Assembly: GCA_946800325.1 (NCBI GenBank)
Contig: OX326961.1
Location: 38,314,543 to 38,378,542 of the forward strand
Source: Luzula sylvatica
Lineage: Eukaryota > Streptophyta > Magnoliopsida > Poales > Juncaceae
Length of the DNA stretch: 64,000 nt
Direction of reading: 5' to 3'
A program made the position numbers and the translations under genes. Position 1 is the first letter of the stretch; each line of letters opens with the position of its first letter. A model generated the notes under the pieces. The model did no database searches, was not told the DNA's origin, and saw only the letters and a program-made list of their open reading frames with translations. Below are positions 21,536-61,187 of the stretch, piece by piece.

Positions 21536-22826
21536 TGTTGGTTCAAATTTCCTAATGGTTTGATTATTTCAAAACACTGTCATTACTAACGTTCACATCG
21601 AGAAAGTGTGTAGGATAACGCAGGTACGACACGAAGATGATGAAGAGTTTCAAAGTCACAAGAAGCACAACAAAAGAAGATTAGAAGGAAGACCCTTGAA
21701 GCATATCAAGAATCAAGATGTAGAAGCCTTCCGTGAGTGGGATTCGCCACAAATAAACCATAGGTAAAAACCAAGTAGACCTCGAGTACAATCATGTTTA
21801 AATAACGAAGAGTTCAATCCAGTGTCAAGTTAGTTGGAACGAATTTCGAGTTCGTTCTGAACGAACCTAAAGTTCGTCGTGAACGAACCTAAAGTTCGTC
21901 GTGAACGAACTTGGTACAAATATAGAAATCTATCACTTGATTGAACCAATCTTATTACAGTAGTGTGTGCGTTCGAACGAACAATGTATTCGTTCGAACG
22001 AACCCTAAGTTCGTTCACTCACAAGTTAAGTGCGTTGAACGAATATCAATACTGTAATTGGACAAAAACAATGTATAATTGAGTTCGTTGGAACGAACAC
22101 TTTGTTCGTTCGAACGGACAGTCAAAAGTACAATTGCGTTATTTGAAACGGCTAGTTCAAATTACTGTGCGTTCAGAACGAAAGATTGAGCGTTCGAACG
22201 GACTAGTAATTTTATGTAGGGTTTCTATAGAGAGTATAAATAGAAACCCTCAAGGAATTTTCTCTCACCGATTTTTCAGATATTACACATTCAATACACT
22301 TGAGAGAAAACCCTATAAGCCGTGATAAGCCATATCCTTTGATTGCTTTGAGAAACCCCTCTAGATCATTGATCTAATTTCGAAATCCCTCCACTAATCG
22401 TTTCCCACTCACGTGACCGATCACGTTGTAGTTTGATTAGTGAAAAGTGTATTAGGCTAGTGCAAGAAACTTGTAAAAGACCTAGCTATAGATCGATAGA
22501 AAGCTTGTAAATCGATCTAGGCAAACCTTGTAATCGAGTGAGTTGGAATTCAATCGAAAGCCAAAAATAGGCACAAGGCATTCCCGGAGACGTAGGTACT
22601 CGCAACTAATTGAGTCGGTCTATTAAGCGAGTAAAGGGTGAGTTAAAGCTACATAGCAACCACCTACCGAACTTCGTTAAAAAACATCTTGTGTTCAAGT
22701 GTTTACGGTATCATCTATCTCATTTAAATCATCATTTATTCCGCATAGTAAATTAGGTAATTAGATATAGTAATTGTATGGTAGATTACCGAATTTACCT
22801 CCCCTCTAGGTTAGAATTAATCAACA
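21536..22826 (+). repeat. 5' LTR, SIRE-like element 2
   Basis: 1,291 bp. Its U3 carries about nine copies of a GTTCGTT-NN-AACGAAC-type palindrome between 21,838 and 22,205, just upstream of the TATA box at 22,235-22,243. Confidence 0.95.
22235..22243 (+). promoter_or_regulatory. LTR TATA box
   Basis: TATAAATAG lies about 30 bp downstream of the last palindrome of the U3 array. This is the expected core promoter of the element. Confidence 0.75.
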
Positions 22827-22828
22827 AT

Positions 22829-22840
22829 TGGTATCAGAGC
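22829..22840 (+). other. Primer binding site (initiator tRNA-Met), element 2
   Basis: TGGTATCAGAGC is a perfect match to the plant initiator tRNA-Met 3' end complement, two bases after the 5' LTR. Confidence 0.93.
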
Positions 22841-22893
22841 AAGGTACTAACCATCTCTTAGAGTATTAGGGATAACTTGTACTTAACGATCAA

Positions 22894-24439
22894 ATGGCCA
22901 AAATTAACCCAATCGTACAAAACTCATCTCCAAATATGATAAATATCGTCCCCAAATCAAACATCTCAAATTTCATCAACAAGTCATGTTGGATGCTCCA
23001 TCCCGAAAATTCCCATTGGTCCAAAAGGGATGGTGACCAAACGGATCGGGAAAGGCGAAAATCTCGACACGAAAAGAGACACGAGGACAAGAGACAAGAA
23101 GATCGCCAAAAATACAAAGGTAAGGAATCCAAAAAGAAAAAGACTTACAAAGAGAAGGTTGATTGTAGGTGGGGAGAAACGGACGGATCAACCTCATCAT
23201 CCGACTCGGATGGTCCATCGAGTCTACACACCGCTAACCTAGCCCTTATGGTAAGGATCGACTCTCCATCAATGAGCGATGTGTAAGCGGCAATTCAAAC
23301 TATCCGAATTGAACGAGGTCCAATCCCAACATCTCAAACACCCGTGGCCTTAAATGTCGAACCCTCTACTCCTACTGCAAAGTCGACACATGACCAAGGT
23401 CATGAGGTACGTATTGACTCTTCACTTAACATAGAATCATTACATCGACCTCAATATTCACCCTCGTTAAAATTAGAAATTGAGTCATGTGACGAGTTCT
23501 TAAGGGATGATGGTAACTCTCAACGAAATAGCGGTAAACTTGAGAGCTCGACACAAGCTCTCAAGGATAAGATAGCTTCTCTTGAACTATCCATTTTGGC
23601 ATTTAAATCTCAAATAAATGAATTTAAAGGTTTTTCGAAATGTGAGTGTCAAGCTTTAAAAGGCGAGATTTCTCACCTAAAAGTCGAACTTCAAAATTCT
23701 AAAATTGAAAATGATTCTTTGAAGAAGGCATGTGCATCCATTGCATCGAGTCCTCCTTCCTTGGATGAAATTTTGAAACTGTCATTCATGGGACAAAAGC
23801 CAAATGACAAATCCGATTTAGGATATAAGAAGAATAACGGTAATAAACCCGATTCTTCCAAATCCAAAAATCAAATATCAAGATGGGAGAACAATCGATT
23901 ACAGCAAAGGTAAAAATGTGAAAAAGGAAAAACCTAAACGTGTTAATTGTAACTATAGGAATAATCAATTCACACAAAACTCACAACCTAGACGTAACAA
24001 TTTGGGAAGAACCGAATGCTTATTCAAACGGGGATCAAATGGCTACTTCTATGAAGTGACTAATTATACCGAGGCGTCGTATCAAAAAGGGGCTCCCAAA
24101 CATTACACAAACTTACAAAAACATTTTCAACCAAAACACGTTCTACCGACCCGATTTGAATCAAACAAATTTAATTCAAATAAATTTCATCAAATGCCAA
24201 AATCGATAAATTCTAGGAGAAGTGACTCAAATAAACTCTCAAATTATTTCGTTAAGAGCTCCACAACCTCAAATTGTCCAACCGTGGCCTTTTGTAATTA
24301 TTGCTGCAAAATTGGTCACATCTCGACAAGTTGTGATCTTCGCAATCCAAAATTGACATCTAACGTCGTTTGGATGCGCAAAGATCGTCACACGATGGGC
24401 CCTTCTACCTCATATGGTGTTGGACCCCCTAGGGTTTAA
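22894..24439 (+). pseudogene. SIRE-like gag, disrupted
   Basis: Gag starts at ATG 22,894. The first 130 codons are mostly a charged R/K/D/E segment; the usual N-terminal UBN2-type Gag domain is largely missing, suggesting an internal deletion. A TAA at 23,284-23,286 interrupts the frame, which then reopens from 23,344 with a coiled-coil-like region (LKDKIASLELSILAFKSQI). After about 23,905 the frame shifts to that used at 23,918-24,439, which carries one CCHC knuckle (CNYCCKIGHISTSC). One in-frame stop, one frameshift and the missing domain make it non-functional. Confidence 0.85.
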
Positions 24440-24568
24440 GCCTGAATGTGACATTATACTCCCGCATATACCATACCATAAGCCAAATATTGAGGGGGAG
24501 TATAGTAAATAGGAATTCATATTAGTTTAATTTCAATTTATGGTTTAACTAATATGAATTTCTTATAG

Positions 24569-27500
24569 ATGGGCTTAACCTCCAAAACCAAGTCATCTAA
24601 GTGGTGTCTATATAGTGGTTGCTCTAGACACATGACTTGGGATCGAGAGATGTTTAAATCTCTTGAACCATTCAAGGGAGGAGACGTTACCTTCGGAGGA
24701 AATAAAAAAGGTAAAATTGTCGGTATCGGTTCCATAGGTACCTCAAATTGGACCCTAGAAAACGTCTATCTTGTAATAGGACTTAAACATAACCTAATTA
24801 GCATAAGCCAATTATGTGATGCCTGGTATTGTGTAAAATTCGATCAAATCTCATGTTTGATTGATCTAATGAAAGATAATATCACGGTATGCAAAGGAAC
24901 CCGACACGAAAATCTATACTACTTCGATTTTGAATCTTTCGTGCCGGGAATTCATTGTCTCACCGTATCGGAATCAGTATCTCGATTATGGCACAGACGA
25001 TTAGGCCACATTTGTATGAAAACTATCTATAGGTTATCCAAAAAGGAATTAGTTAGAGGATTACCATCTCATAAACTTGAATTAGAAGGGTTATGCGATG
25101 CGTGTGAAAAGGGTAAGCACACGAGGTCATCCGGGTTCAAATCGAAGAACATGGTCACCACAATCCGACCTCTCCAACTCATCCATCTCGATCTTTGCGG
25201 TCCACTAAGCGTCTCGAGCATAGGTAATAAAAGGTATATGTTTGTAATTGTGGATGATTATTCACGTTTCACATGGGTATATTATTTACTCCATAAAAGT
25301 GAAACGTGTGACAACTTTATCAAATTTTGCACACTTGTTGAAAATGAAAAAGGCACCTCAATTGTCACCGTTCGAAGTGACAATGGAGGTGAATTTAGAA
25401 ATGCGAAATTTGATGAATTTTGTCATAAAAAGGGATATATACGCGAATTTTCCGGTCCTCGCACACCTCAACAAAATGGTGTAGTTGAACGTAAAAATCG
25501 AACGTTAATTGAACTTGCTCGTACCATGCTAAATGAGCACCCTTCTCCAAAATACCTGTGGGCTGAAGCTGTTAACACCGCATGTCACGTGGTTAATCGA
25601 CTTAGCTTAAGGCCTATTTTGAAGAAGACGCCATATAAGCTATGGTATGGGAGAAATCCAAACGTCTCATATATGAGAGTGTTTGGATGCAAATGCTTTA
25701 TCTTTGACGAATTGAGTAATCGAGACAAACTCGATCCAAAATCCATTGAAAGAATCTTTGTCGGTTACTCAAGTACAAGTAAAGCATACCGGGTTTTCAT
25801 ACGATGTACTCAAGTCGTACGTGAATCCGTTCACGTGCATTTTGATGAAACTAAGAAAGAGACCGAGAAAGGTAACACAAGTGTAGGTGAAGTCAAGGAA
25901 ACGATCGCTAAATCACCAAAAGAACAAACCGAAGTCGAGTATCAATACCTTGATATCACACTTGATGAACCTCAAGTAGACAACAATGACCTTCAAGAAG
26001 AGGAAGAAGAAGAAAAAGAGATCGAAGCTCCTTACCAAATCCCTGAGGTTCTTCGAGAAGTAGCGGCTCATCCTCTCACTAACATCGTTGGAAATCCCCG
26101 AGACGGTGTGCAAACTCGGTCTCGTATCCACAACTATGTCGCTCATTGTGCATATATCTCTCACATCGAGCCAAAATCGTTCAAGGAAGCAAATCTAGAT
26201 GAAAATTGGATTATCGTAATGCAAGAAGAATTGGAGCAATTCGAGAGAAATCAAGTTTGGACGTTGGTTCCGAGACCTATAACTCGATCGATCAAAGGGA
26301 CTCGATGGATTTATCGAAATAAACTCGATGAACATGGAAATGTGGTACAAAATAAGGCAAGACTCGTCGCTCAAGGATTCAAACAACAAGAAGGAATCGA
26401 TTTCGAAGAAACCTTTGCCCCAGTCGCCCGATTAGAAGCAATACGACTCCTCCTAGCTTACGCCGCTATCGAGGGGTTTACGCTTTTCCAAATGGACGTT
26501 AAGAGTGCATTTCTCAACGGTGAAATCGAAGAAGAAGTCTACGTCGAACAACCACCTGGATTAAAGGATCCAAAATTCCCCGATTACGTGTGCAAACTGT
26601 CCAAAGCTCTATACAGTTTAAAACAAGCCCCTCGAGCATGGTACGATTGCCTTTCCTCGTTTCTCACCACGAATGGATTTGTTCGAGGGATAATCGACAC
26701 CACACTCTTCACACGTAAAAAGGGAGTATCTATTCTACTTGTTCAAATTTACGTAGATGATATTATTTTTGGATCTAGTGACTCGGCAATTGCCGAAGAA
26801 TTTTCTATTCTTATGAAAAGTGAGTTTGCCATGAGCATGGGAGAACTAAAATTCTTCCTAGGCCTTCAAGTCAAACAATCTTCCGACGGAATCTTCGTAA
26901 ATCAATCCAAGTATACTCGCGAATTACTCAAGAGATTCGAGTTAGATCACACCAAAACGAGTGATACTCCAATGGCCAAGGAATCCAAATTGGATGCAGA
27001 CGAAGATGGTGAGTCTTTTGATATCACGGCATATCGAGGAATGATCGGAAGCCTTCTTTATCTCACTGCTAGTCGACCCGACATTATGTTCGCCGTATGT
27101 TTGTGCGCTCGATTTCAAGCAAACCCCAAGGTATCGCACTATAATGCCGTCAAACGTATATTTCGATATTTGAAAGGTACAATCGAACTTGGGATTTGGT
27201 ACGGGCATAGTGGAAATCTAAACCTAGTAGGGTACACGAATGCGGACTTTGCCGGTTCCCGAGTTGACTGTAAAAGCACGAGTGGTACGTGTCAATTCCT
27301 AGGCGGATCACTTGTCTCATGGTCAAGCCGAAAGCAACACTCCGTTGCCCTATCAACGGCCGAGGCCGAATATGTGGCGGCCGGAAGTTGCTGTGCACAA
27401 CTATTATGGTTAAATCAAATTCTCAGAGACTACGGTTTAAACTTCCGCAAAATCCCCATATTATGCGACAACAATAGCGCCATATGCATTTCGAAAAACC

Positions 27501-27694
27501 CCGTCTACCATTCACGAACCAAGCACATCGACATACGTCACCATTTCATTCGGGATCATGTGGAAAAAGGTGATGTCCGACTCGAATGGATAGAGACGCA
27601 CGATCAAATTGCTGACATTTTCACCAAGCCTTTGCCATTTGCGCCATTTTCCAATCTACGACTAAAGCTAGGTATGTTATCTCAAAAATATTAA
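24569..27694 (+). CDS. SIRE-like pol polyprotein (protease remnant, integrase, RT, RNase H)
   Basis: A 1,041-codon open frame. Residues about 8-25 are the protease start, but the catalytic Asp of the D-S/T-G triad is Tyr at residue 15 (LYSGCSRHM), so proteolysis should fail. The integrase zinc segment (WHRRLGH, then CDACEKGKH) precedes the core, with acidic residues in HLDLCGP (about 207), RSDNGGEF (about 268) and VERKNR (about 306). The reverse transcriptase starts near 544 and carries YVDD at about 727. RNase H has [12 protein letters not shown] (about 927), CDNNSA and [10 protein letters not shown]. Integrase, RT and RNase H all look intact. It shares a frame with the last gag segment but is separated from it by a stop at 24,437. 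Confidence 0.93.
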
Positions 27695-27829
27695 AATTCG
27701 TGCATGAGTGGTAGATTTCTATGTCATATCATCCTACGTGTACAAACATGTTTGTAAATATAAAAACTATATTATTGAAGTCCTAGTAGAATCACTTTTG
27801 GTCTATTCCCTGATCACCTCACAGTGCCA

Positions 27830-27868
27830 AGTGCGTTCGAACGAATCGAATGTTCGTTCGGAACGCAC
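27830..27868 (+). promoter_or_regulatory. Palindrome pair upstream of the polypurine tract
   Basis: Two more palindromes of the LTR type, GCGTTCGAACGAATC and GTTCGTTCGGAACGCAC, lie in the untranslated segment between pol and the 3' LTR. Confidence 0.6.
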
Positions 27869-28095
27869 TCACATACATTAATTTGCTTGAAAAATGTGAT
27901 TTTTTTTCTTCTACGAGCCCATACATTCATAAAAAATTCATTTATTGAGGGGGAGCTCGTATTTAGGGGAAGCCTTCCGTGGTTGAAGTTTCATTGGCCC
28001 TTTTGATCACTTTCAAAATGGGGAGAAACGATCATACGGAAAGTTCTCCATGAAAAGTCGAAACTCTCCAAATCGACGGTGTTTTGAAATTAATC

Positions 28096-28108
28096 AAAAG
28101 GGGGAGTT
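28096..28108 (+). other. Polypurine tract, element 2
   Basis: AAAAGGGGGAGTT directly precedes the 3' LTR. Confidence 0.9.
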
Positions 28109-29399
28109 TGTTGGTTCAAATTTCCTAATGGTTTGATTATTTCAAAACACTGTCATTACTAACGTTCACATCGAGAAAGTGTGTAGGATAACGCAGGTAC
28201 GACACGAAGATGATGAAGAGCTTCAAAGTCACAAGAAGCACAACAAAAGAAGATTAGAAGGAAGGCCCTTGAAGCATATCAAGAATCAAGATGTAGAAGC
28301 CTTCCGTGAGTGGGATTCGCCACAAATAAACCATAGGTAAAAACCAAGTAGACCTCGAGTACAATCATGTTCAAATAACGAAGAGTTCAATCCAGTGTCA
28401 AGTTAGTTGGAACGAATTTCGAGTTCGTTCTAAACGAACTACAAGTTCGTTCTGAACGAACCTAAAGTTCGTCGTGAACGAACTTGGTAAAAATATAGAA
28501 ATCTATCACTTGATTGAACCAATCTTATTACAGTAGTGTGTGCGTTCGAACGAACAATGTATTCGTTCGAACGAACCCTAAGTTCGTTCACTCACAAGTT
28601 AAGTGCGTTGAACGAATATCAATACTGTAATTGGACAAAAACAATGTATAATTGAGTTCGTTGGAACGAACACTTTGTTCGTTCGAACGGACAGTCAAAA
28701 GTACAATTGCGTTATTTGAAACGGCTAGTTCAAATTACTGTGCGTTCAGAACGAAAGATTGAGCGTTCGAACGGACTAGTAATTTTCTGTAGGGTTTCTA
28801 TAGAGAGTATAAATAGAAACCCTCAAGGAGTTTTCTCTCACCGATTTTTCAGATATTACACATTCAATACACTTGAGAGAAAACCCTAGAAGCCGTGATA
28901 AGCCATATCCTTTGATTGCTTTGAGAAACCCCTCTAGATCATTGATCTAATTTCGAAATCCCTCCACTAATCGTTTCCCACTCACATGACCGATCACGTT
29001 GTAGTTTGATTAGTGAAAAGTGTATTAGGCTAGTGCAAGAAACTCGTAAGAAACCTAGCTATAGATCGATAGAAAGCATGTAAATCGATCTAGGCAAACC
29101 TTGTAATCGAGTGAGTTGGAATTCAATCGAAAGCCAAAAATAGGCACAAGGCATTTCCGGAGACGTAGGTACTCGCAACTAATTGAGTCGGTCAATTAAG
29201 CGAGTAAATGGTGAGTTAAAGCTACATAGCAACCACCTACCGAACTTCGTTAAAAAACATCTTGTGTTCAAGTGTTTACGGTATCATCTATCTCATTTAA
29301 ATCATCATTTATTCCGCATAGTAAATTAGGTAATTAGATATAGTAATTTGACGGTAGATTACCGAATTTAACCCCCCTCTAGGTTAGAATTAACCAACA
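28109..29399 (+). repeat. 3' LTR, SIRE-like element 2
   Basis: 1,291 bp, the same length as the 5' LTR. The palindrome array is at 28,411-28,778. One GTTCG palindrome block differs between the two LTRs (GAACGAACTACAAGTTCG against GAACGAACCTAAAGTTCG). Confidence 0.95.
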
Positions 29400-36469: not shown

Positions 36470-37445
36470 TGAAAGAAATACAGTTTCGGATCAACCGTAA
36501 AAGTGTACACAAGGATAAACGAATGTAGTCGTACATTCGTGGCCATAACTTTCAGTGGGAAAATCCAATTAGAATGGTTCAAATTGGGTTAGATAGATAA
36601 TGAGATTATCTACAACCTTCATATAGAAATATATTTCATATGAACGAAGTATAAGTGTCGTTTCTGTGAAATACCGAAAGGGTGCAACAGTATGACATAC
36701 AATTAGTAAAACAGTCATAACTTTTGCATACGAACTCCAATTGGGCTGGGCCAAATTGTGTTGAGTAGATAATAAGATTATCTACAAGTTTCGTGTTGGT
36801 TGATTTTCTGTCAGAGAAATTTATCAATTTCTTCTGGACAGAATACTGAACAGGTTCATACAGTTTTCTGTGTGAAAGGGTGTATATTGGATATACATGC
36901 CTTTTGGCTAATCCTTATCCTATTAGGTATAAATAGGATTTTCTCTCTCATCTTCACTAAGGAATTCAGAAGTAATTCAAAGCAATATTCTGCCCAAGAC
37001 ACAAGAAAAAGAGCAAATTCAGATTTGATCTTTTGTGAGTGAAAAGGCACGAAGAGAGATTAATAGAGAATCGATCGAGATCAAGCAAGTGCACCGATAC
37101 ATCGTCTAGGCAGGTGTATCCGTGTCCGGCGTCTTCCGACTCAAGGTGGATACGTGTGGAGGAGCAACACTTGGGGCTCTCCGTTGTGATCGAACCGAAG
37201 GATCGAAGAACGGGAACGAACGGTGAAGGACGCACGGTGTGGGACGCGCGTAAAGTCACCAACGTGACCGGAGGAATAGGAGGCAGCGATCAACCCTTCG
37301 TGTTCCATCAATTTGGAACTGGTATGGATCTAACCTTCTATTTGCATCGTACCCTCGAAGTCGTGGCGTGATCTCGGGAATCGGGGAACCGGACCGGGCC
37401 TACATATCCGCTGCGCGGGTCCGGGGCCGGGGATATTCCCCTACA
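36470..37445 (+). repeat. 5' LTR, element 3
   Basis: 976 bp with TG...CA ends. TATA box TATAAATAG at 36,928-36,936. Confidence 0.95.
36928..36936 (+). promoter_or_regulatory. LTR TATA box
   Basis: TATAAATAG. The identical word is at 40,938-40,946 in the 3' LTR. Confidence 0.7.
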
Positions 37446-37446
37446 G

Positions 37447-37458
37447 TGGTATCAGAGC
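37447..37458 (+). other. Primer binding site (initiator tRNA-Met), element 3
   Basis: TGGTATCAGAGC lies one base after the 5' LTR and is a perfect match to the canonical site. Confidence 0.93.
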
Positions 37459-37748
37459 GATCGCCATCGATTCGAGGGTCGAATCATAGTCGTATATTAG
37501 ATATACGCACGGGTTATCAAAGTTCGTACCCGTTTGCATGATGTTACATATTCAGAATGTCAAATTCCATTAAAATCACAAGTGAAATTCGCTAGAGATC
37601 GATCAATAGTTGATTGAGAGTATCTAGGAATAATCGTGAAAAGGTTTCATGATTGATCGTTTTGGAAACGAGCGAAAACAGCAGTTCAAAAATCGCAACG
37701 GACACTGTAGCAGATACAGGAAATTGAGATTTTTTCGAAAAAACACAT

Positions 37749-38203
37749 ATTCCGTTATAACGGACTTGGTGTCCGTTGTAACGGACCCTGTATAGGATGC
37801 GGGGGTGTGAGGAGGACCGTGAAAACTGCATATTCCGTTGTAACGGACTTGGAGTCCGTTGTAACGGACCTTGTATCTGATACGAGGTTGCGGGGATGCC
37901 TAGGGTGTCTATTGGAGTCCGTTGTAACGGACTGGGTCCGTTGTAACGGAGCTCTACACAGTTGGTCCGTTGTAACGGACTGTATGTTGCGTTGTAACGG
38001 ACTGGTCTCTGGAAATTTGGACGAAAGTTTGCAGAAAATAGCGTTGTAACGGACCTAGGTTGCGTTGTAACGGACATGTTTCTGGCAAAATTTGGCCAAA
38101 CTCCGAAATAAATAGCGTTGTAACGGACTGGACTTCCGTTGTAACGGAGTGCCAAGTATACTGGAGGTCCGTTGTAACGGACTATGTTGCGTTACAACGG
38201 ACT
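37749..38203 (+). promoter_or_regulatory. Palindrome array in the leader of element 3
   Basis: Fourteen copies of a CCGTT-NN-AACGG dyad occur in about 455 bp. Nine have both half sites intact and five have GCGTT on the left. Most spacers are GT, with single AT and AC. It lies between the PBS and gag, so it is present in the genomic RNA as well as in DNA. Function is unknown. Confidence 0.85.
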
Positions 38204-38498
38204 GGTTTCTGGTTGCTGATTTTGTTTTCGTGATAACTTTGGCTACACAACTTGGAATATTGAGTTCTTTATATCGATTTGATCGGCATCAATCATACTA
38301 GCATATAATTAGATAATTATTTAGAATAATTAGACTCCCAAATAAATACATATGCATTTATGAAAATCTTGTGATAGTGATATAATTGGATTATGTCACG
38401 GATTTAGAAACGTGCAATGGCATGATCCCTCATAATATTTAAGTCATGGAAATGCCTTCCATATTCACAACCACTATGATCGGTACTACGTCTCACAT

Positions 38499-38676
38499 GG
38501 GTTAAGGCCAAAGCCGACATGGGTTATTGTAGTCATCGACGGGGTGGCAAGCGTTAAATAGGGACTGATAAGGGTTAAGGCCAAAGCCGACTTATTAGTA
38601 GTTTATTTGAACGATACGATGAGTATGGTTGTGACTTAACCGTTCTAGCCAGTAAGGGTTGAGGCCAAAGCCGACT
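38499..38676 (+). repeat. Three spaced copies of AAGGCCAAAGCCGAC in the leader
   Basis: Copies of GGGTTAAGGCCAAAGCCGAC (the third with TGAGG) lie near 38,500, 38,572 and 38,656, spaced 70-85 bases apart. The intervening sequence is not repeated. This could be a packaging or translation signal of the element RNA; that is inference. Confidence 0.7.
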
Positions 38677-39005
38677 TGATTGGAAGTTCGGGGCATAGAT
38701 AGGATGCACACACGGAACTGGGATTGTATTGGATACGATCCATCACCGAAATCCTATAAAGGTTCAAGAGTCGCATTGGATGTGATTGGATATAATCCTA
38801 CCTAAATAGCGAGATCTCATTCGTCTGCCAAAGCAACTTGTGGGAGGATCGTAAAATATGGGTCTTGAGTGTTATGGACTTGGAGTCCCGTATCGGTATG
38901 AGGGTTATCGATTCGATAAAATAACACTATCATATAATCATCATATAAGCCCTATAAGATAAGTACGCAACGTTAGTAATCAATCTTTTATTTCATTTGT
39001 AGAAT

Positions 39006-40538
39006 ATGTCTTCTAGTAACACCAACACCATGTCGATTAGATCGACTTTAGAAAAGGATAAGCTAGTGGGTCGGAACTACTTTGACTGGCACCGAAACCT
39101 GAGAATAGTTCTCAGGCAAGAGGGTAAGAGTCACGTATTGGATACGGAACTAATGGAACCGGGCCCCGATGCTACGGCCGAAGAAAAGGCCGCGTTTGAG
39201 AAACTTAAGAAGGACTCAAATGATGTTACGTGCCTCATGTTGGCATGTATGGACGCTAGTCTTCAAAAGCAGTTTGAGGACTCGGATGCGCACATCATAG
39301 ACGTTGTGCTCAAGGAAATGTTCCAAGAGCAGGAGCGTATTGAACGGTTCAGTACGCTCAAAGAGTTGGTAAACTGCAAGATGCCTTCGGGGTCTTCGGT
39401 TAGCTCTCACGTTTTGAAGGTGCAAGCTCTCATAGACCGTCTTGAGAAGCTAGGAGAGAAATTGTCGAAGATTATGCAACAAGATTTGATCTTGTGTGCA
39501 CTTCCTCCAATGTTTTCTCCGTTCGTGACTAACTATCACATGCATTCGATGGATAAGACGATCCCTGAGCTTCACGGAATGCTCAAGAATTTTGAATCGG
39601 AGACGTTAAAGTCGTCCGGAGAGAACAGGGCAAGAGTTGCCGGAAATGTTCTCACAATTCAGAATAAGGATCGTAAGAGATCAAAGTCCAAGGGCGGTTC
39701 GGCTAAGAAACGTTCGAAGCCGAATAAAAGGGGAAAGGAGAAATCCAAGGATGAGACGTGCTTTCATTGTCACAAGGCTGGACATTGGAAGCGCGATTGC
39801 AAGTCTTACCTCGAGGAGGTGAAGAAGGGCAAGGCGGTTTCAGCGACCGGCCTCTCAGGTATTAACGTTATTGAAGTTAATATTTCAACTATGACTAATT
39901 GGGTATTGGATACCGGTTGTGGGACTCATATTTGTCGAAATATGCAGGTTCTTCAAAATAGTCGAAGGTTGGAAAAGGGTGAAGTCGATCTACGCGTCGG
40001 GAATGGAGCAAGAGTTGCTGCGTTTGCCGTAGGAGTAGTTAATTTGACTTTACCTAGTGGACTTATTTTAGTACTAAATAATTGTTATTATGTACCGACA
40101 TTATGTAAGAACATAATAAGTGTGTCGAAACTGGCCAATGATGGCTATGAATTCGTTATTAGGAATAATGAGTTTTCGATATGTAAGGATTCTATTATCT
40201 ATGGAAATGTTCTGTTAGAAAATGGTCTTTATGTGTTGGATTTCGATCACGGAAATAATAAGTCCATATATAACGTTAATGCAAAAAGGATTAAACCTAA
40301 AGTTGATAATCGGACTTACTTTTGGCATTGTCGTCTCGGTCATGTGAATGAGAAACGCATTGCTAGACTCCATAAAGATGGAATGCTAGACTCATTTGAA
40401 TTGGATTCATTTGGGAATTGTGAATCTTGTTTGCTTGGCAAGATGACTCCAAGGATTAACTCTTGTTTGAGTGGGAGACTGAAAGAAATACAGTTTCGGA
40501 TCAACCGTAAAAGTGTACACAAGGATAAACGAATGTAG
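39006..40538 (+). CDS. Intact Gag-protease protein of element 3
   Basis: 510 codons from ATG 39,006, which follows a long leader. Residues about 10-210 form the Gag (UBN2-type) domain, followed by a basic KRSKSKGG-type segment. One CCHC knuckle lies at about 252-265 (CFHCHKAGHWKRDC). The aspartic protease start at about 299 (WVLDTGCGTHIC) has its DTG triad intact. A GAG-pre-integrase zinc segment (FWHCRLGH, then CESCLLGKM) ends near residue 480. Homology stops exactly there, and the frame runs into the 3' LTR and stops at 40,538. There are no internal stops or frameshifts. It could supply capsids in cis while RT and integrase come from another element. Confidence 0.92.
   Translation: MSSSNTNTMSIRSTLEKDKLVGRNYFDWHRNLRIVLRQEGKSHVLDTELMEPGPDATAEEKAAFEKLKKDSNDVTCLMLACMDASLQKQFEDSDAHIIDVVLKEMFQEQERIERFSTLKELVNCKMPSGSSVSSHVLKVQALIDRLEKLGEKLSKIMQQDLILCALPPMFSPFVTNYHMHSMDKTIPELHGMLKNFESETLKSSGENRARVAGNVLTIQNKDRKRSKSKGGSAKKRSKPNKRGKEKSKDETCFHCHKAGHWKRDCKSYLEEVKKGKAVSATGLSGINVIEVNISTMTNWVLDTGCGTHICRNMQVLQNSRRLEKGEVDLRVGNGARVAAFAVGVVNLTLPSGLILVLNNCYYVPTLCKNIISVSKLANDGYEFVIRNNEFSICKDSIIYGNVLLENGLYVLDFDHGNNKSIYNVNAKRIKPKVDNRTYFWHCRLGHVNEKRIARLHKDGMLDSFELDSFGNCESCLLGKMTPRINSCLSGRLKEIQFRINRKSVHKDKRM
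40467..40479 (+). other. Polypurine tract, element 3
   Basis: GAGTGGGAGAC lies directly before the 3' LTR. It is less pure than usual but in the right place. Confidence 0.6.
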
Positions 40539-41455
40539 TCGTACATTCGTGGCCATAACTTTCAGTGGGAAAATCCAATTAGAATGGTTCAAATTGGGTT
40601 AGATAGATAATGAGATTATCTACAACCTTCATATAGAAATATATTTCATATGAACGAAGTATAAGTGTCGTTTCTGTGAAATACCGAAAGGGTGCAACAG
40701 TATGACATACAGTTAGTAAAACAGTCATAACTTTTGCATACGAACTCCAATTGGGCTGGGCCAAATTGGGTTGAGTAGATAATAAGATTATCTACAAGTT
40801 TCGTATTGGTTGATTTTCTGTCAGAGAAATTTATCAATTTCTTCTGGACAGAATACTGAACAGGTTCATACAGTTTTCTCTGTGAAAGGGTGTATATTGG
40901 ATATACATGCCTTTTGGCTAATCCTTATCCTATTAGGTATAAATAGGATTTTCTCTCTCATCTTCACTAAGGAATTCAGAAGTAATTCAAAGCAATATTC
41001 TGCCCAAGACACAAGAAAAAGAGCAAATTCAGATTTGATCTTTTGTGAGTGAAAAGGCACGAAGAGAGATTAATAGAGAATCGATCGAGATCAAGCAAGT
41101 GCACCGATACATCGTCTAGGCAGGTGTATCCGTGTCCGGCGTCTTCCGACTCAAGGTGGATACGTGTGGAGGAGCAACACTTGGGGCTCTCCGTTGTGAT
41201 CGAACCGAAGGATCGAAGAACGGGAACGAACGGTGAAGGACGCACGGTGTGGGACGCGCGTAAAGTCACCAACATGACCGGAGGAATAGGAGGCAGCGAT
41301 CAACCCTTCGTGTTCCATCAATTTGGAACTGGTATGGATCTAACCTTCTATTTGCATCGTACCCTCGAAGTCGTGGCGTGATCTCGGGAATCGGGGAACC
41401 GGACCGGGCCTACATATCCGCTGCGCGGGTCCGGGGCCGGGGATATTCCCCTACA
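40480..41455 (+). repeat. 3' LTR, element 3
   Basis: 976 bp, about 99.5% identical to the 5' LTR by eye. Confidence 0.95.
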
Positions 41456-41540
41456 AACCCGAGTCATGTCGAATTCGGCTTTGAAAAAGATGATCATAAG
41501 CCCATTCCCTTGAGACGAGAATTCCGTATCGGAATCCACT
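41456..41540 (-). pseudogene. DUF4283 gene, N-terminal fragment beyond the insertion
   Basis: On the minus strand, the codons before the AACCC junction encode the GNGLMIIFFKAEFDMTRV part of a DUF4283 domain, in frame with the sequence left of 36,470 once the retrotransposon and one TSD copy are ignored. Further upstream it is cut off by the SIRE-like LTR at 41,591. Confidence 0.7.
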
Positions 41541-41615
41541 CGCCATAAACGGATAAGTGAGTGGATTAATGTGGAATCTAAGATAGGTTTTGTTGTTTAA
41601 TTTAGACCTTGGGGT

Positions 41616-41642
41616 GGGGGGGGGGGGGGGGGGGGGGGGGGG
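41616..41642 (+). repeat. Homopolymer of 27 G
   Basis: An uninterrupted G run preceded by GGGGT. It sits at the LTR end, where element 2 has only a C6 tract on the equivalent strand, so it looks like an expanded homopolymer. Confidence 0.9.
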
Positions 41643-42584
41643 TGAATAGGAAGTCCTACGGTCCAATTTTCGCGGTAATGGATACAATTACAATTTTGTG
41701 CGGAAGCGTAAATAAATTAGAGAAAGAATTACAATACCGAAACAAATAACACGCGATATTTGTTTACGGAGTTCGGTAGGTGGTTGATTTGTAGCTTTAA
41801 CTCACCGGCTACTTGCTCAATCGACCGACTCGATTGATTGCAAGTACCTACGTCTCCGGGGTTCCCTTGTGCCTTTTCGGCTTTCGATTGAATACCCAAC
41901 TCAAACAATTACAAGGTTTGCCTTGATCTATTTACACGAATTTATCGATCAATGGCGGGCTTTACGATTAGTAACTAGCCTATTACAATTTACTACTAAC
42001 GAACTAGTCGTGATCGGTCACGCAAGTTCGGAATCGTTTAGTAGTGGATTCGAAATTGGATCTAATAATCTCTAAGAATGTTTAGATGATTAAGCTCAAG
42101 ATTTAAAGCTAGGATTCTCTTTTTTGATTGGGAAAATATATTAGTTGAGATGATAAGAGAGAATGAGGGAAGGATTTGATAAGAGGAAAATAAAGCACCT
42201 TTTTGATATCTAATTTGGGGATTTTAGCCCTTTTGAATCACAATTTTATATATACAATTGTTCATATTTGAGATAACAAGAATATTTCTTCACTAAGTGT
42301 GTTTTATTGCTTAATTACAGGTTTTAGGTGGAAATTCTCGGCAATCCAAGATGTAGTTGCCTTCGTCTCCTCGCGCCGTTAAAATCGATATATCATACCG
42401 ACCAATTCGGTACACGTGTGAAGGAGAAGGCAAATAATCATTAACATAAGAGATTGCACCAAACTCTACTCGAAAACCACTCACACAATTGCCACTCTAC
42501 AGCCCACCTACCTCAACTACCACCCCCAACTACCCTCAATCCTCTCACCCATATCTCGGCCAATGGGAAAACCCCAATGACACT

Positions 42585-42592
42585 ATAAATAA
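42585..42592 (+). promoter_or_regulatory. Possible TATA box
   Basis: TATAAATA is followed about 65 bp later by a long CT tract, in the inner LTR. Confidence 0.4.
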
Positions 42593-42665
42593 GACCCAAG
42601 GCCTATGAGAAGACCCCCCGCTCCCCCCTCCCCCGCTCTTCGGAGCACTTTCTCTCTCTCTCACA

Positions 42666-42667
<2 letters not shown>

Positions 42668-42741
<74 letters not shown>
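42668..42741 (+). repeat. (CT)n microsatellite
   Basis: About 37 uninterrupted CT units. Confidence 0.95.
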
Positions 42742-42743
<2 letters not shown>

Positions 42744-42840
42744 AGCAAGTCCAAGAATCTTTCAAGATCACGCAAGAATTACCAAGAACGAACGATAAAT
42801 TCTCTAAGATCAATCACCGAATAGAAGCTCACTTCATTCG

Positions 42841-43130
42841 GTGAATTGGTCTACACTTCGACGAAGATCGAGTTGCGAGGATTGAGGTGGAGCTTTCTTC
42901 ATCCGAATCCGCTCAAGCAAGGAGTCAAGCTTACTCTATTCCACTCGGGAGCTTTCTTCTAATTGGACTTCTTGCAAATCTCGAGTTCACTCAACCGGTA
43001 CGGAGCTCACTTCGATTGGCGAGTGGATTGGTACGAAAGGAACACGTTGTGCGAGGCGACTAGCTCACTAGCATCTCGAGGCAACGGAGAAGGCATCCAA
43101 GACGAGACTCGGAGCTCACTTCATCTCTCT
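42841..43130. repeat. Recurring GGAGCTCACTTC-type motif
   Basis: AGCTCACTTC or AGCTTTCTTC occurs five times (about 42,826, 42,891, 42,949, 43,004, 43,112), usually preceded by GG and followed by TTGG- or TCCG-type sequence, in the inner LTR. Confidence 0.55.
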
Positions 43131-43381
43131 AGGTGTTTTCTTTCCTTTTCTTGAAATTCTTGTAGTATTAAATTTGAATTGGATTTGTGTAAAGAAGTTA
43201 AAGATTGTGTTGAATCTAGTTTCTTTGATTCTAAATCTTTGTTCTTGCATTCGATCTTTTGCTCTCTTTTGTGTTCTTTTGTTGCTCTCTTTTTACTTGC
43301 TTTTCAGCCCCTAATTAACTCATCAAACATTCACAAACCAAATCCCTAATAAAAATAACAAATTCCCAATCCAGGAGATAG

Positions 43382-43490
43382 TCTGTTATAACGGAAGTTC
43401 ACCATCCGTTACAACGGACCTATCGTTAGTCCTTATTCATTTCAGTTTGTTGAACTCCGTTATAACGCAACTTGCTCCGTTGTAACGGAC
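43382..43490. promoter_or_regulatory. Palindrome cluster, left part (inner LTR)
   Basis: Four dyads of the CCGTT-NN-AACGG type, two perfect. Continues at 45,068 beyond the solo LTR. Confidence 0.75.
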
Positions 43491-43865
43491 TAGTGTGTTG
43501 ATTCAAATTTCCGATTGTTTGATTATCTCAAAAACAATATCGATATTACTAACAAGATCTATCGAGAATGGTGTATAGGATATATATAGGTACAAAATGC
43601 AATAAGAAGTCGAAGAATCGCAAAGAAGAATAAGACGTCGAAGAATCGCAAAGAAGTACAAGACGTCGAAGATTCGCAAAGAAGATCAAGACGTAGAAGA
43701 ATCATGGAATCAAGACATCGAAGATTCCGCAAGTTGGGATATCAATCTAATCACCAAAACACAGTATAGGTATCCCTAAACTTGTTTATGTATGATTAAG
43801 CTCAAAACAAAAGTCAAATAAATGTAATCGAAATCCTGAATTGATATAAAAGGCTGAAATAAGGA

Positions 43866-44420
43866 TGTCCGTTACAACGGAACTCAGTGTCCGTTATAAC
43901 GGACATGCTCGTCCTATTCAAGAAAGAAAACACAGTATAGTCCGTTACAACGGATTAACCAATCCGTTATAACGGACTTAGAAAAGCGTTGCAACGGAAT
44001 AATGTCCGTTACAACGCTAATTAAAATCAAACTTGAAGGATGTCACAGAAGTATGTCCGTTACAACGGACATGTATGTTCGTTATAACGGACATTGAAGT
44101 CATTTCAGCTCAATATACTTCCCTTCATATCCGTTGTAACGGATTAACCAATCCGTTACAACGGAATGCCAATAAACGTTGTAACGGAACTTACTCCGTT
44201 ACAACGGGAATTAAACTCAAACTGAAGAGAAGTTTTCAGTATGATGTCCGTTGCAACGGACATGTCAGTCCGTTACAACGAACTACATAACACAGGGTTC
44301 CGTTATAACGGACATATATTCCGTTGTAACGGAGTATGTAAAAATTCGAATATAACAGCCATAACGGCTAGTTTGACTTATGGTCCGTTGTAACGGACAT
44401 TATGTTCGTTATAACGGACA
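43866..44420 (+). promoter_or_regulatory. Palindrome array in the U3 of the solo LTR
   Basis: About 18 copies of GTCCGTT-NN-AACGGAC or one-half variants in 555 bp. Spacers are mostly AC, AT and GT. The last copy is 40 bp upstream of the TATA box. Confidence 0.9.
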
Positions 44421-44459
44421 TTACGAAAAATGCAAGTTCTGGGAAGGGTCTATGTGTTC

Positions 44460-44468
44460 TATAAATAG
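44460..44468 (+). promoter_or_regulatory. LTR TATA box (solo LTR)
   Basis: TATAAATAG directly downstream of the palindrome array. Confidence 0.7.
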
Positions 44469-45067
44469 AACCTTTCCCTCTTTTCTCTCTCCAACTTTGA
44501 TAATCTGATTTCCACACTTACAAGAGAGAATACTTGCAAAATCCTTTGAGCTCATAATCTTCTAAACATTCTTAGAGATTATTTCCTTCCATTCCTCCAC
44601 CAAATACGATTCCCAACTTGCGTGACCGATCACGTTTAGTTCGTATTAGAAGTGTAATAGGCTAGCATCAAGAGTGTAAAGCCCGCTAGAGATTGATAGA
44701 ATAACGTGTAAATCAATCTCGGCAAAACCTTGTAAGAGTGATTCGGGAATTCAATCGAAAGCCGAAAAAGGCGCAAGGCATCCCCGGAGACGTAGGTACT
44801 TGTATTCAATCGAATCGGTCGATTGAGCAAGTAGACGGTGAGTTAAAGCTACAAAGCAACCACCTACCGAACTCCGTTATCAAATATCGCGTGTTCAAAG
44901 TGTTCGGTATTTTCTCAATTTCAATTATATCATTTTTAGCTTCCGCACTAATTTAGAATCGGTATACCATAATCGAAAATTATATACGAGGATTACCTAT
45001 TCACCACCCTCTAGGTTATAATTAACCAACATAGTGTGGATTCCTTCAGTCAAAACCTTAACACACA

Positions 45068-45262
45068 GTCCGTTGTAACGCAACTTGTTCCGCTGTAACG
45101 GATTCACCAATCCGTTGTGACGGACCAGCAGCTCCGTTGTAACGGACACCCACTTCCGTTGCAATGGACTTATCTCCGTCATAACGGATTAGTGTCCAAA
45201 ACTCAGAAATTAAATCAATGCACAAGTCCGTTGTAACGGACATTCTTCCGTTATAACGGACA
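45068..45262. promoter_or_regulatory. Palindrome cluster, right part (inner LTR)
   Basis: Eight dyads of the same type, several with one substituted half site (TCCGCTGTAACGG, CCGTTGTGACGG, CCGTCATAACGG), so this copy of the array is more decayed. Confidence 0.8.
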
Positions 45263-45492
45263 ATTTTCTGGAAAAGTTTCTGTCCATTTTTGCTTGTTTT
45301 TGATTCATTATTCGACGCATATACTCCTCGTGGAACGAACTTGCATATTTTCCACTATACACATATATTTTCACACTTGTTGATTGAATCGGGTTTTCGA
45401 ATACAACGATAATTTTACACGCCAAAAATCCGCTCATCAGGATTCTATTTATAGAACACATAGACCCTTCCCAGAATTTGCTTTTTCTTTAT

Positions 45493-46050
45493 AGTCCGTT
45501 ACAACGGACATGTAGTCCGTTATAACGGACCATAAGTCAAACTAGCCGTTACAGCTGTTATATTCGAATTTTCAATCAGTCCGTTACAACGGAACATATG
45601 TCCGTTATAACGGAAGTCTGTATTAAGTAGTTCGTTGTAACGAACTAAAGGGTCCGTTACAACGGACATTCTTCTGAGAACTTCACTTCAATTTGGTTCT
45701 TATTGTCCGTTACAACGGAGCACATTCCGTTGTAACGGTAAGTGGCAGTCCATTATAACGGATTGGTTAATCCGTTACAACGGACATGAAGGGAAATTCC
45801 TACCCTGAAGTGAGTTCAATGTCCGTTACAACGGACAGGTATGTACGTTACAACGGACATCATTATGTGACATTGTTCAAGTTTGGATTTAATTAGTGTT
45901 ATAACGGACATTCTTCCGTTACAACGCTTTGGTGGTGTCCGTTACAACGGACTGGTTGATCCGTTGTAACGGACTATACTGTGTTTTCCAATCTTGAATA
46001 GGACGAGCATGTCCGTTATAACGGACCATGAGTTCCGTTGTAACGGACAT
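45493..46050 (-). promoter_or_regulatory. Palindrome array in the U3 of the minus-strand SIRE-like LTR
   Basis: About 18 dyads, most with both half sites intact, upstream (on -) of the inverted TATA element CTATTTATA at about 45,445. Confidence 0.88.
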
Positions 46051-46400
46051 CCTACTTTCAGTCTGATTTATTATTTCATCATTCTGATGAATTTCGAATA
46101 TATTTATTTGACTTAATTTGAGCTTAATCAATCATAAATAAGTTTAGGGATACCAATAAGTTGTTTTGGTGATTATTGTGATCTCCCAACTTGCGGAATC
46201 TTCGATGTCTTGATTCCGTGATTCTTCACGATTCTTCGACGTCTTGATCCTCGATATTCTTGATTGATTTTTGCTTGTTTATCTTGATCTTCTTATTGCA
46301 TTTTGTACCTATATCTCCTACATGTTTTACTCGATAGATTTTGTTAGTAGTATCGATATTGTTTTTGAGATAATCAAACAACCGGAAATTTGAACCAACA

Positions 46401-46413
46401 AACTCCCCCTTTT
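46401..46413 (-). other. Polypurine tract of the minus-strand SIRE-like element
   Basis: AACTCCCCCTTTT on +, the reverse complement of the PPT of element 2. Confidence 0.85.
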
Positions 46414-46880
46414 GATTCATTTCAAAACAATGTCGATTTGGAGAGATACATCGATTATGGAGGATCTTTCCAATGTGATTATCTTTTCTCCCCTTTTTTG
46501 AAAGTGGATCAAAAGGAAACGAACGGAAAAATCATGAAAGACCGCTCCCCCTACATACAAGCTCCCCCTAACTAATTGCATAACGCAATCGTTTAGGCTT
46601 TTATGTAGTTGCCAAAAACTCACATGGATTGAAATGATTTTGATGTGAGTACTTGAAATAATTTTAAATATTTTGAGATTAAGACACACAACATTTAGCA
46701 CACAAAGTTTTAAATCAATTTAAAATTGAAGTTCATACATAAGCAAACATGCGAAATACAATTCAACAAACCTAACATAAAGCAAAATGCAATTCAACAA
46801 AACAAGATCATGCAAATATTACTTAATATTTAAAATAACATAGTTTTAGGCTCTCATGAGCTAGTTGGACACACTCCTCT

Positions 46881-50442: not shown

Positions 50443-50799
50443 CCTATTAATTTAATACGTAATTAACATCATTTCGAATTCATAAATTCGAATCAATATT
50501 AATGAATTTTAAATGATATGTTTTAATTATCACGTTAATTAAATGCAATAGTACAAATATGGAGAATACGGCGGGTACATTTTGGAGTAAAATAAAATTT
50601 AATATCTTTTTTCACGCATGAACAGTAGATCTGATATTAAATTTTTTTTTTACTTTCCATCAAAATGTACCCGCCGTATTCTTCATATTTGTAATATTGC
50701 ATTTAATTAGCGTGATAATTAGAACATATAACTTAAAATTCATTAATATTGATTCGAATTTATGAATTCGAACTGATGTTAATTACGTATTAAATTAGG
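50443..50799. repeat. Long inverted repeat (hairpin), arms about 165 bp
   Basis: The left arm 50,443-50,606 and right arm 50,633-50,799 are about 88-90% complementary by eye, with a 26-bp loop. Shared words include GAATACGGCGGGTACATTTTG and TTCGAATTCATAAATTCGAAT. Transcription through it would give a near-complete double-stranded RNA. Related single arms occur at 50,990-51,110 and 51,720-51,810. Confidence 0.85.
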
Positions 50800-57456: not shown

Positions 57457-58540
57457 CTAGTTTTATTCTTGCGCAATTGCGCGGGATAACATATCTATTT
57501 ATTTACATATTTTTTACATAATTATTTAAATAGAATTTAACGCGTGTGCGAATTAACGCGCGCGCGTTTGAACTAACTTAATATAATCATGACATATTTG
57601 CAAATATCATGATGTCAATAGATGCATAAGTTTCATGAAATTAGTCTATCACGAATATTATTTTATGATATAATTTGTATAAATGGCATTTGTTCAGGTA
57701 CTTTTAAAGACGATTAATATAATCAGGACATATTCGCAAATATATTTGATGTCAATAGATGCATTATAGTTACGATTCATTAAAGAATCGCAACGTGTCA
57801 TATAGATACAACGGACAAATAACAAATTTTTATGAAAACTCGCATAAATTTGAGGTTCCAAAATTTCATATATACCCGTGCAAAATGAGCAAATAAAAAA
57901 AAAATTGAAAAGCAAAAAAAGGACCAAAATGTAAAAAGAGAAAAAATTGGATAAAAAGGAAAATTACAAAAAAAAAATTGAACTTACAAAATTGCATACA
58001 TGACCCTGTCCAATGAGAAAATTAAAAAAAAAATTGAAAAATAGGAAAAAAAGATCAAAATGTAAAAAAGGAAAAAAAATGTAAAAAAAGATCAAAATAT
58101 AAAAAAGGACCAAAATGTAAAAAAGGCCCAAAATGTAAAATAGGAAAAAAGGATCAAAATGTAAAAAAGGACCAAAATGTAAATAATTTTTTTTTGGAAA
58201 AAAGGATAAAAATGTAAAAAGGGACCAAAATGTAAAAAAGGATCAAAATGTTAAAAAGGACCAAAATGTAAAATAGGAAAAAAGGATCAAAATGTAAAAA
58301 AGGACCAAAATGTAAATAAAAAAATATAAAATAAGAAAAAAAGACCGAAATGTAAAAAAGGACCAAAATGTAAAATAGAAAAAAATGTAAAAAATGTAAA
58401 AAATGCCAAAAATGTAAAAAAAATAGACCAAAATGTAAATAAAAAAGGACCAAAATGTAAATAAAAAATAGGGGTAAAAGCAAAAGCTACTCTCTGCCAC
58501 ATGTCATCACAAGGTGGAGGGAGTAGCATTATAGTAACTA
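57457..58540 (-). mobile_element. Helitron, minus strand, with GGACCAAAATGTAAAAA arrays
   Basis: The 3' end (minus) is the hairpin CCGCGCAATTGCGC with CTAGT (CTAG at 57,457-57,460). The first 250 bases match the end at 19,313 (for example CATATTTGCAAATATCATGATGTCAATAGATG). Then come about 500 bp of AAAAAGGACCAAAATGTAAAA repeats. The other end near 58,490-58,540 has TGCCACATGTCATCAC, a counterpart of the GGCCACATCATCAC near the 5' end at 5,282. Short L/F-rich ORFs on - are artefacts of the repeat. Confidence 0.65.
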
Positions 58541-58589: not shown

Positions 58590-58961
58590 AAAACACACCC
58601 CCCCAAGCTTTAACATAACACTTCGACAATTTTTTTCTATTCGGTTTCTCCTAAAAAATCTAATAAGGAGAATACTAACATGACCTAAGAGAAGAATGAA
58701 TAGCCAATTTTATGGCATAATCTCAAATTAAGGCCAAACTCAAACTCAATTTGTTGGTCGATTTCGTAAATTAACAATTCAAATAAAAATGCGAAAATAA
58801 TAATAATAAACACAAAATAGAAAGATATTATCGAATTATCAATTTCGCTAACAACAAAATTGATAACAGAGTTCGGCGGATAGTTGCGTGAATTTTTAAC
58901 TATCTGCTGCTTGCTAGTCGACCGATTTGACTTTCACGAGTACCTACGTCTCTGTAGATAT
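58590..58961 (-). repeat. Diverged SIRE-like LTR remnant, left part
   Basis: GAGTTCGGCGGATAGTTGCG, CTGCTTGCTAGTCGACCGATTTGACT and GAGTACCTACGTCTC are counterparts of the R/U5 region of the minus-strand LTR at 41,740-41,860. Interrupted at 58,962 by a solo LTR and continued at 60,197. Confidence 0.6.
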
Positions 58962-59530
58962 TGAAGGGAATTATCCCGTCCCCGGGCCCGCGCATCGGAT
59001 ATGAAGGCCCGGTCCGGTTCCCAAATCCCGAGATCACGCTTCGATATCGAGGGTACGATGCAAAGGAGGATAGACGATTACCAGCGTGAAATTGATCACG
59101 CACGATGGGTTGATCGCTCGCATCCTTCTCTTCCTCGGTGTGACGTTGGTGACTAGCATGTGCGTCCCATACCACACGTCTCCCACCGTCTTGACACACC
59201 TCCGATTGTCTTCGTGCGTCCCACGTCCACACGCTTCCACATCCTTTCACTCTCTTACTTCTCCGGTTTGATCACAACGAAGAGCCACAAGTGTCGCTCA
59301 TTTACCCGTATCCACCGTGAGTCGTAGCACCTCGGCCGCGGATGCACCTGCCTAGACGATGCACCGGCGAACTTGCATGATTGCTTTCGATTCTCTAGAC
59401 TGAGAAAACACCTTTTCTCTTTCTCTCTTTCTCATCGCACTCTTTCAACACGTGATAAGAGTCTCTCTAATTTCTGGACCGAATTAGACTTCAATTGATC
59501 TGAATTGTCTGTATATTCTGAATGGTCTGA

Positions 59531-59605
<75 letters not shown>

Positions 59606-60191
59606 ATCATATTTATTCAACATAGGATAAGGATGGGCCAAAATGTATGTATATCTACTATACATCTTTTCAAACAGAAACTGCATACATCCTTTCAGTA
59701 TTCTGTTGAAACGAAATTGTTAAATCGTTCCAACCGACTTTAAACCTTCACGAAAGTTGTATATAATCTTATTATATTTCCAACCCAATTTGGCCCAGCC
59801 CAATTGGAGTTCGGATGCGAAAGTTATGACGATTTTACTAACTGTATATCAAACTGTCGCACCCTTTCGGTATTTCATTAAAACGACACTGATACTTCTC
59901 TCAAATGAAATATATTTCTACATGAAAGTACTAGATAATCTCATTATCTATCTAACCCAATTTGAACCATTCAAATTGGAGTCGTTATCTGAAAGTTATG
60001 TCAGTTTTACTAAAACTGTTTAAACTGATTTTCTGGTTTTCTTAATAAAACCGTTTCTTATTAATTTAACTATGTATATCCAATATACATATGTGCATCT
60101 TATATACACATTATTTATGCCCACGAACGCGTGCGTTCGTTTATCCTTATGTGTACCATTTTACCGTTGATCCAAAACTGTATTTCCTTCA
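58962..60191 (-). mobile_element. Solo LTR of the element-3 family, minus strand, 1,230 bp
   Basis: On + it starts TGAAGGGAATTATCCCG and ends TGTATTTCCTTCA, flanked by GATAT on both sides (58,957-58,961 and 60,192-60,196). The sequence is the reverse complement of a diverged element-3 LTR (GCGGGTCCGGG end, GGATCAACGGTAAAATGGTACACA start, CAATTGGGCTGGGCCAAATTGGG). It is longer partly because of an (AG)n tract. It lacks internal sequence, so recombination has removed the rest. Confidence 0.88.
59533..59603 (+). repeat. (AG)n microsatellite
   Basis: About 35 AG units inside the solo LTR. Confidence 0.95.
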
Positions 60192-60196
60192 GATAT

Positions 60197-61052: not shown

Positions 61053-61187
61053 TAGTGTTGGTTCAAATTTTTGGTTATTTGATTATCTCAAACCAATGCC
61101 GATACTACTAATCAATTTGTTAAATGACAATTGTAGGAGATAGATATAGGTATGGTCCGTAAACGAGATCAAAAGAAGATACACACA
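61053..61187 (+). repeat. Start of a SIRE-like LTR, plus strand, truncated
   Basis: TGTTGGTTCAAATTTTTGG and TTTGATTATCTCAAAC are the LTR start seen in element 2 and the solo LTR. It is interrupted by the hAT element at 61,188 and not clearly resumed after 62,361. Confidence 0.6.

Follow-up and report, generated by a model that had tools for sequence, protein, structure and literature searches.

Within a 64,000 nt stretch of the Luzula sylvatica genome (contig OX326961.1, positions 38,314,543 to 38,378,542, forward strand; hereafter the window, whose numbering is used throughout), a short palindrome recurs as four arrays of closely set dyads in three retroelement settings. The half-sites of the dyads are conserved far beyond the spacers that separate them, the two bases at the dyad centre obey a fixed rule, and the intervals between dyads lie near whole turns of the DNA helix. 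The feature is real and strongly non-random, and its half-sites are under constraint. We propose, leaning slightly in favor of this interpretation, that the arrays are cis-regulatory docking platforms, each dyad of which would accommodate one dimer of a host DNA-binding protein.

In the window, to which all scans, counts and shuffles refer, the exact motif CCGTTNNAACGG was found 39 times, against a mean of 0.03 and a maximum of 1 in 100 dinucleotide shuffles. When up to three mismatches to GTCCGTTNNAACGGAC were allowed, 70 matches were obtained, compared with a shuffle mean of 1.33 and maximum of 5. A density no higher than in shuffled DNA, which an earlier reading of the letters without database searches (the sequence-only reading) had named as grounds for discarding its proposal, is thus not what we observed. 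Fifty-eight of the 70 matches are located in 37750-46048 and 11 in a separate element (A; 21967-28776), and the lone match at 32465 looks like a chance occurrence. Under a relaxed rule, with dyads identified through their resemblance to the consensus, 62 dyads form four arrays, of which the leader of element B holds 14 dyads, the long terminal repeats (LTRs) C and D 18 each, and element E 12. These numbers are exactly the approximate ones given in the sequence-only reading (~14, ~18, ~18 and ~12). The elements and their arrays are as follows.

36470-41455, plus strand: element B, Copia-type; LTRs at 36470-37445 and 40480-41455, 99.5% identical; target duplication AACCC
39006-40538: open reading frame of element B, with gag, pol beta-barrel and GAG-pre-integrase domains
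37750-38202: leader array of element B, 14 dyads at intervals of 21, 62, 21, 63, 19, 29, 22, 52, 21, 53, 21, 33 and 20 bp
41591-46400, minus strand: LTR D, a Sirevirus-like 3′ LTR that E divides into 46400-45440 and 42176 to ~41591 (far end placed by eye)
45494-46048: array of D, 18 dyads, collinear with that of C; nearest dyad 41 bp from the TATA box (minus strand, 45453)
42177-45439: element E, probably a solo LTR, ~1.7 kb excluding C; ends TGATAAG...CTCATCA; target duplication GGATT
43381-43490: left part of the E array, 4 dyads
45068-45261: right part of the E array, 8 dyads
43496-45031, plus strand: solo LTR C of a Sirevirus-like family, inserted in E; target duplication TAGTG at 43491-43495 and 45032-45036
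43867-44419: array of C, 18 dyads, ending 41 bp ahead of the TATA box at 44460
21536-29399, plus strand: element A, a Sirevirus-like Copia element; 97.8% identity between its LTRs; target duplication, as judged by eye, CTTTT
21967-22203 and 28540-28776: variant dyads of element A, GTTCGTTCGAACGAAC, one group in each LTR

C is thus nested inside E, and E inside D. As C and D are 80.8% identical over 993 aligned positions and their arrays are collinear, they belong to one family, and the arrays occupy three settings rather than four. The statement that the palindrome is spread over several unrelated retroelements therefore holds for B, C/D and E, which have no detectable sequence in common, but not for C and D, and 'unrelated' applies at the level of detectable sequence only. 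Apart from its dyads and a simple TC repeat, element E does not significantly match any other part of the window. The related array of the GTTCGTTCGAACGAAC form, which lies beyond the span covered by the sequence-only reading, is present in both LTRs of element A, with an additional variant dyad at 27831, ahead of the 3′ LTR. The ratio of observed to expected CpG is 1.31-1.79 in the arrays of B to E and 2.23 in that of A, compared with 1.21 for the window, at a G+C content of just 0.39-0.48.

The conservation of the half-sites is evident from the alignment of C with D, in which only the dyads of C were labeled and D was left unconditioned: differences affect 7 of 180 positions of the half-site core, 60 of 264 in the array spacers and 69 of 397 in the LTR outside the array. 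Internal duplications agree, with the reservation that dyads were labeled in both copies, which biases this comparison toward low half-site divergence. In the two duplications of B (units of 83 and 74 bp), the half-sites differ at 0/28 and 2/28 positions versus 16/51 and 25/42 in the spacers, and in the ~188 bp duplication of C, at 8/84 versus 45/92. Within the half-sites, AACG is kept almost unchanged. Hence the description of half-sites being kept while the sequence between copies diverges is borne out, and a plain recent tandem duplication lacking half-site conservation, the other case named in advance as fatal to that proposal, can be rejected. Because the half-sites are conserved so far beyond the spacers, there is good support for selection acting on the dyads. 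The same internal duplications could be taken to mean that neutral copying preserves the dyads without any function, the array being duplicated and its copies exchanging sequence or serving as templates for repair, and exchange between copies could also raise the variation at the centre. We consider this very unlikely, since the half-sites were retained where the spacers of the same duplications diverged. Moreover, templated repair would leave an excess of symmetric changes, but only 3 were observed versus 5.3 expected, and both halves had changed at one position in 13 cases versus 12.5; symmetric templated repair was rejected on these counts. Likewise, CpG was kept at 34 of 36 dyad positions in the C/D alignment, compared with 12 of 19 elsewhere (p=0.005), which also speaks against neutral copying.

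The dyad centre is purine-pyrimidine in all 62 dyads of B, C, D and E. The sequence-only reading had given the centres as nearly always GT, AT or AC, which is in line with this rule but omits the GC class (3 dyads). Between C and D, the centres have undergone 14 transitions and no transversion, whereas the spacers show 29 and 31, respectively (p=0.0002). A purine-pyrimidine centre that changes only by transition is what two inward YAACGG half-sites would require. The full half-site is YAACGGA, frequently followed by C.

The dyads are arranged 19-23 bp apart (~21 bp) in pairs or short runs; 'pairs' is a simplification, as runs at ~21 bp reach four dyads in C and D and six in E. The remaining intervals of 29-33, 51-53, 62-64, 84 and 95 bp are near whole helical turns. 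A scan of periods from 8 to 14 bp peaked at 10.50 bp over all 61 intervals and at 10.45 bp when D was left out (44 intervals; mean cosine 0.81 at 10.5 bp). Under null models that take the intervals as uniform and independent, the 16 intervals longer than 26 bp (without D) yielded p=2e-5 when the best period between 9 and 13 bp was taken, and the 12 longer intervals left after removal of internal duplicates yielded p=0.0001 at 10.5 bp and 0.001 when scanned over 9-13 bp. The E interval that spans C comes to 52 bp, or five turns, after subtraction of C and of one copy of its target duplication. The insertions and deletions that separate C from D comprise four of 1 bp in the array and five of 2-18 bp outside it. 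A 10.5-bp period would also be seen if phased dyads bent the DNA or set the rotation of nucleosomes, with no specific dimer involved. To this explanation we give very little credence: a rotational signal needs no exact 14-base pair of half-sites, yet AACG is near-invariant.

In the docking arrangement that we favor, a host protein would contact each YAACGGA half-site, and a dimer would form on each dyad. With dyads about 2, 3, 5, 6, 8 and 9 turns apart, successive dimers would be placed on the same face of the DNA and could bind cooperatively, and the bound protein would promote expression of the element. The phasing and the fixed centre together turn this into a concrete prediction, namely a dimeric protein that binds along one helix face with the half-site YAACGGA. 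The position of the arrays, either before the promoter (C, D and A) or after it (B), suits an enhancer. By distances derived from computed coordinates, the array of A stops 32 bp upstream of the TATA box at 22235, and that of B starts 822 bp downstream of the TATA box at 36928, in the leader. The E array begins 797 bp past a TATA-like site on the plus strand, which may or may not be E's own strand. The binder is plausibly of the MYB type, judging from the half-site counts and the centre rule (62/62), both of which agree with YAACGG, the core shared by MYB sites and the mitosis-specific activator (MSA). In the sections of the literature available to us, AACGG is given as the core of MYB3R/MSA sites (PMC8964727; PMC10905365), AtMYB2 has reportedly been found on TAACGG, and homodimer motifs with a fixed spacing are known for R2R3-MYB proteins (PMC11995187). 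If a single host factor does serve several retroelement families, it would represent a common switch for much of the mobile DNA of a plant genome.

Several observations weigh against this interpretation. The phasing becomes weaker in stricter sets of intervals, i.e. with C and E merged (10 intervals; p=0.0003 at 10.5 bp, 0.007 scanned), with the six distinct lengths (p=0.005 and 0.087), with B alone (six intervals; p=0.003 and 0.066) and with B after de-duplication (four intervals; p=0.039 and 0.37). The transition rate between C and D is higher at the centres (14/36) than in the spacers (29/264), which a free pyrimidine alone does not explain. The base following AACGG is A in 115 of the 124 half-sites of B to E, and this flank fits poorly to MSA elements, in which it is a pyrimidine. 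In element A, the centres are CG or GG instead of purine-pyrimidine, and its dyads were accordingly rejected as YAACGG sites. In the study that mentions AtMYB2 on TAACGG, the models themselves favor ACCTAAY (PMC11995187). Finally, paired dyads show fewer mismatches with each other than shuffled ones do, both in C (15 versus 22.9, p=0.001) and in D (12 versus 17.0, p=0.03).

This last result is what would be expected if the arrays acted as hairpins of RNA, or as cruciform DNA, in which neighboring dyads pair into a ~16-bp stem with a 3-7 nt loop and serve the element's RNA or give rise to small RNAs that draw silencing by the host. In support, the leader RNA of B folds strongly (z -10.2), a purine-pyrimidine centre likewise leaves most pairs possible, and palindromes of maize Sireviruses are described as small-RNA hotspots in the text available to us (PMC5311732; PMC10760457). 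However, strong folding is expected of any palindrome array, and the mismatches of paired dyads resemble those of shuffles in B (15 versus 14.9) and E (14 versus 12.3). The excess of pairing may also amount to few events, given the shared descent of C and D and the internal duplication of C. Hairpins do not predict whole helical turns between pairs, and they sit poorly with the lack of excess in symmetric double changes within dyads noted above, because of which the half-sites seem to be kept singly, as for protein contacts. We regard hairpins as rather unlikely, but take a role in RNA structure or small interfering RNAs seriously as a competing explanation. The sequence-only reading had offered dimer-binding sites or structured elements under selection; selection stands, and dimer sites are favored over structure on account of the helical spacing and the same lack of symmetric double changes, although structure retains some support from the pairing in C and D.

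Palindromic repeats in LTRs have a precedent in Sireviruses. In 13 elements, Bousios et al., 2010 described palindromic repeated motifs (RM) that mostly precede the TATA box within the upper half of the LTR; in 12 of these elements the motif bears a CGG-CCG signature. According to the portion of that paper available to us, classic Copia elements lack the repeated motif, and no single binding factor could be named (PMC2829016). Palindrome boxes in Sirevirus LTRs have thus been in print since 2010, in that source without a named protein. As in the RM boxes described there, the present arrays consist of many short CpG-rich dyads that closely precede the TATA box within the first half of the LTR (by 41, 41 and 32 bp in C, D and A), and some of the published elements also carry extra copies ahead of the 3′ LTR. 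The boxes of OPIE-2, HOPIE and Usier contain a CGGAC/GTCCG half, which faces outward in our dyads. By this analogy, the arrays of C, D and A would work like Sirevirus RM boxes. In contrast to those boxes, the present dyads read CCG..CGG, so that the CGG-CCG signature was not found as the dyad core in C and D, and CGG..CCG arises only between neighboring dyads. The B leader and element E carry dyads as well, and the dyads are helically phased, for which we found no description in the accessible text on RM boxes (PMC2829016).

Other systems share some of these properties. Maize Sireviruses likewise carry palindrome clusters in their LTRs (PMC5311732; PMC10760457), but with another motif and, in the excerpts available, an emphasis on secondary structure and small RNAs; the same palindrome is common in structured regions of Helitrons, so that the sharing of a palindrome by different types of element has a precedent (PMC10760457). 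LTR sites of ONSEN for heat shock factors (PMC3907296) and of Rider and Tto1 for MYB proteins (PMC6762207) similarly recruit a host transcription factor, but the parts of these reports that we saw describe few sites and no long phased array. The MYB3R-bound MSA elements of mitotic genes resemble the dyads in their AACGG core, repetition and occurrence in both orientations (PMC8964727; PMC10905365), whereas in the accessible passages there are 2-4 such sites, which vary in number and orientation and do not form fixed dyads. For the CpG islands in Del LTRs, no palindromes are described in the section available to us (PMC4029996). A literature search, based on partial texts and far from exhaustive, returned no account of the present motif, nor of LTR palindromes set at helical intervals. 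Accordingly, the rule for the centre, the helical phasing and the occurrence in B and E were not found reported and are apparently new, while palindromic LTR arrays in Sireviruses are known (PMC2829016).

The dyads may have been acquired by these families, spread between them or been inherited from a very old common source. When the dyads were masked, the spacers showed no convincing similarity in 14 comparisons besides C/D, the best being C with the right part of E (E-value 0.015), while the positive control, C with D, reached 3e-12. We thus rejected a recent spread of the arrays between families, a result that excludes recent transfer only. A broader possibility, which we advance tentatively and hold to be doubtful, is a phased dyad code across families: tens of dimer sites for one host factor, locked to 10.5 bp, would have been captured or converged upon and be usable on either side of a promoter, and element A would represent a version with both half-sites re-tuned to another specificity.

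Element B had been called a Gag-only element. Its open reading frame gave no match to reverse transcriptase or the integrase core in a domain search, but besides gag it also encodes the pol beta-barrel and GAG-pre-integrase domains. This single long frame extends into the 3′ LTR. As its LTRs are 99.5% identical, B moved recently; perhaps it was mobilized by the proteins of another element, its own reverse transcriptase and integrase being lost. The proteins of A and B have a common stretch of 28% identity. An LTR akin to that of B is located at 58961-60192 on the minus strand (82% identity over 406 bp and 70% over ~440 bp), and no dyads of the B-E kind were found near it.

Element A has multiple polypurine tracts before its 3′ LTR, GAGGGGGAG at 27947 and AAAAGGGGGAG at 28096, and several tracts adjoin LTR D at 46401-46600, four of them within ~165 bp of the LTR. 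No multiple tracts were found in B, whose purine runs in 40001-40480 are all shorter than 9. Both A and D show, by eye, an inverted repeat around the junction of the tract and the 3′ LTR. After the terminal tract, both have TT/TG instead of the Sirevirus attachment site AT/TG, and we therefore labeled them Sirevirus-like rather than Sirevirus. The LTRs of A and C have their later part in common (76.9% identity over 463 positions). To judge from its end bases, E may be a Ty3/Gypsy LTR.

A fragment of a Sirevirus-like LTR start, 75% identical to C, lies at 61055-61152; a further array beside it was considered and rejected, as there are no dyads of the B-E kind at that site. Near the end of LTR D, positions 41611-41642 form a 32-base G-run with 93% matches (a C-run in the LTR sense). 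Long TC/AG microsatellites occupy 42651-42741, inside E, and 59533-59603. An AT-rich minisatellite of the type AAAAAGGACCAAAATGT was found at 19608-20534, 58029-58468 and, on the opposite strand, 5379-5584. Finally, 50448-50797 contains an inverted repeat with 150-bp arms that are 93% complementary and 50 bp apart, possibly a foldback element or one resembling a miniature inverted-repeat transposable element.

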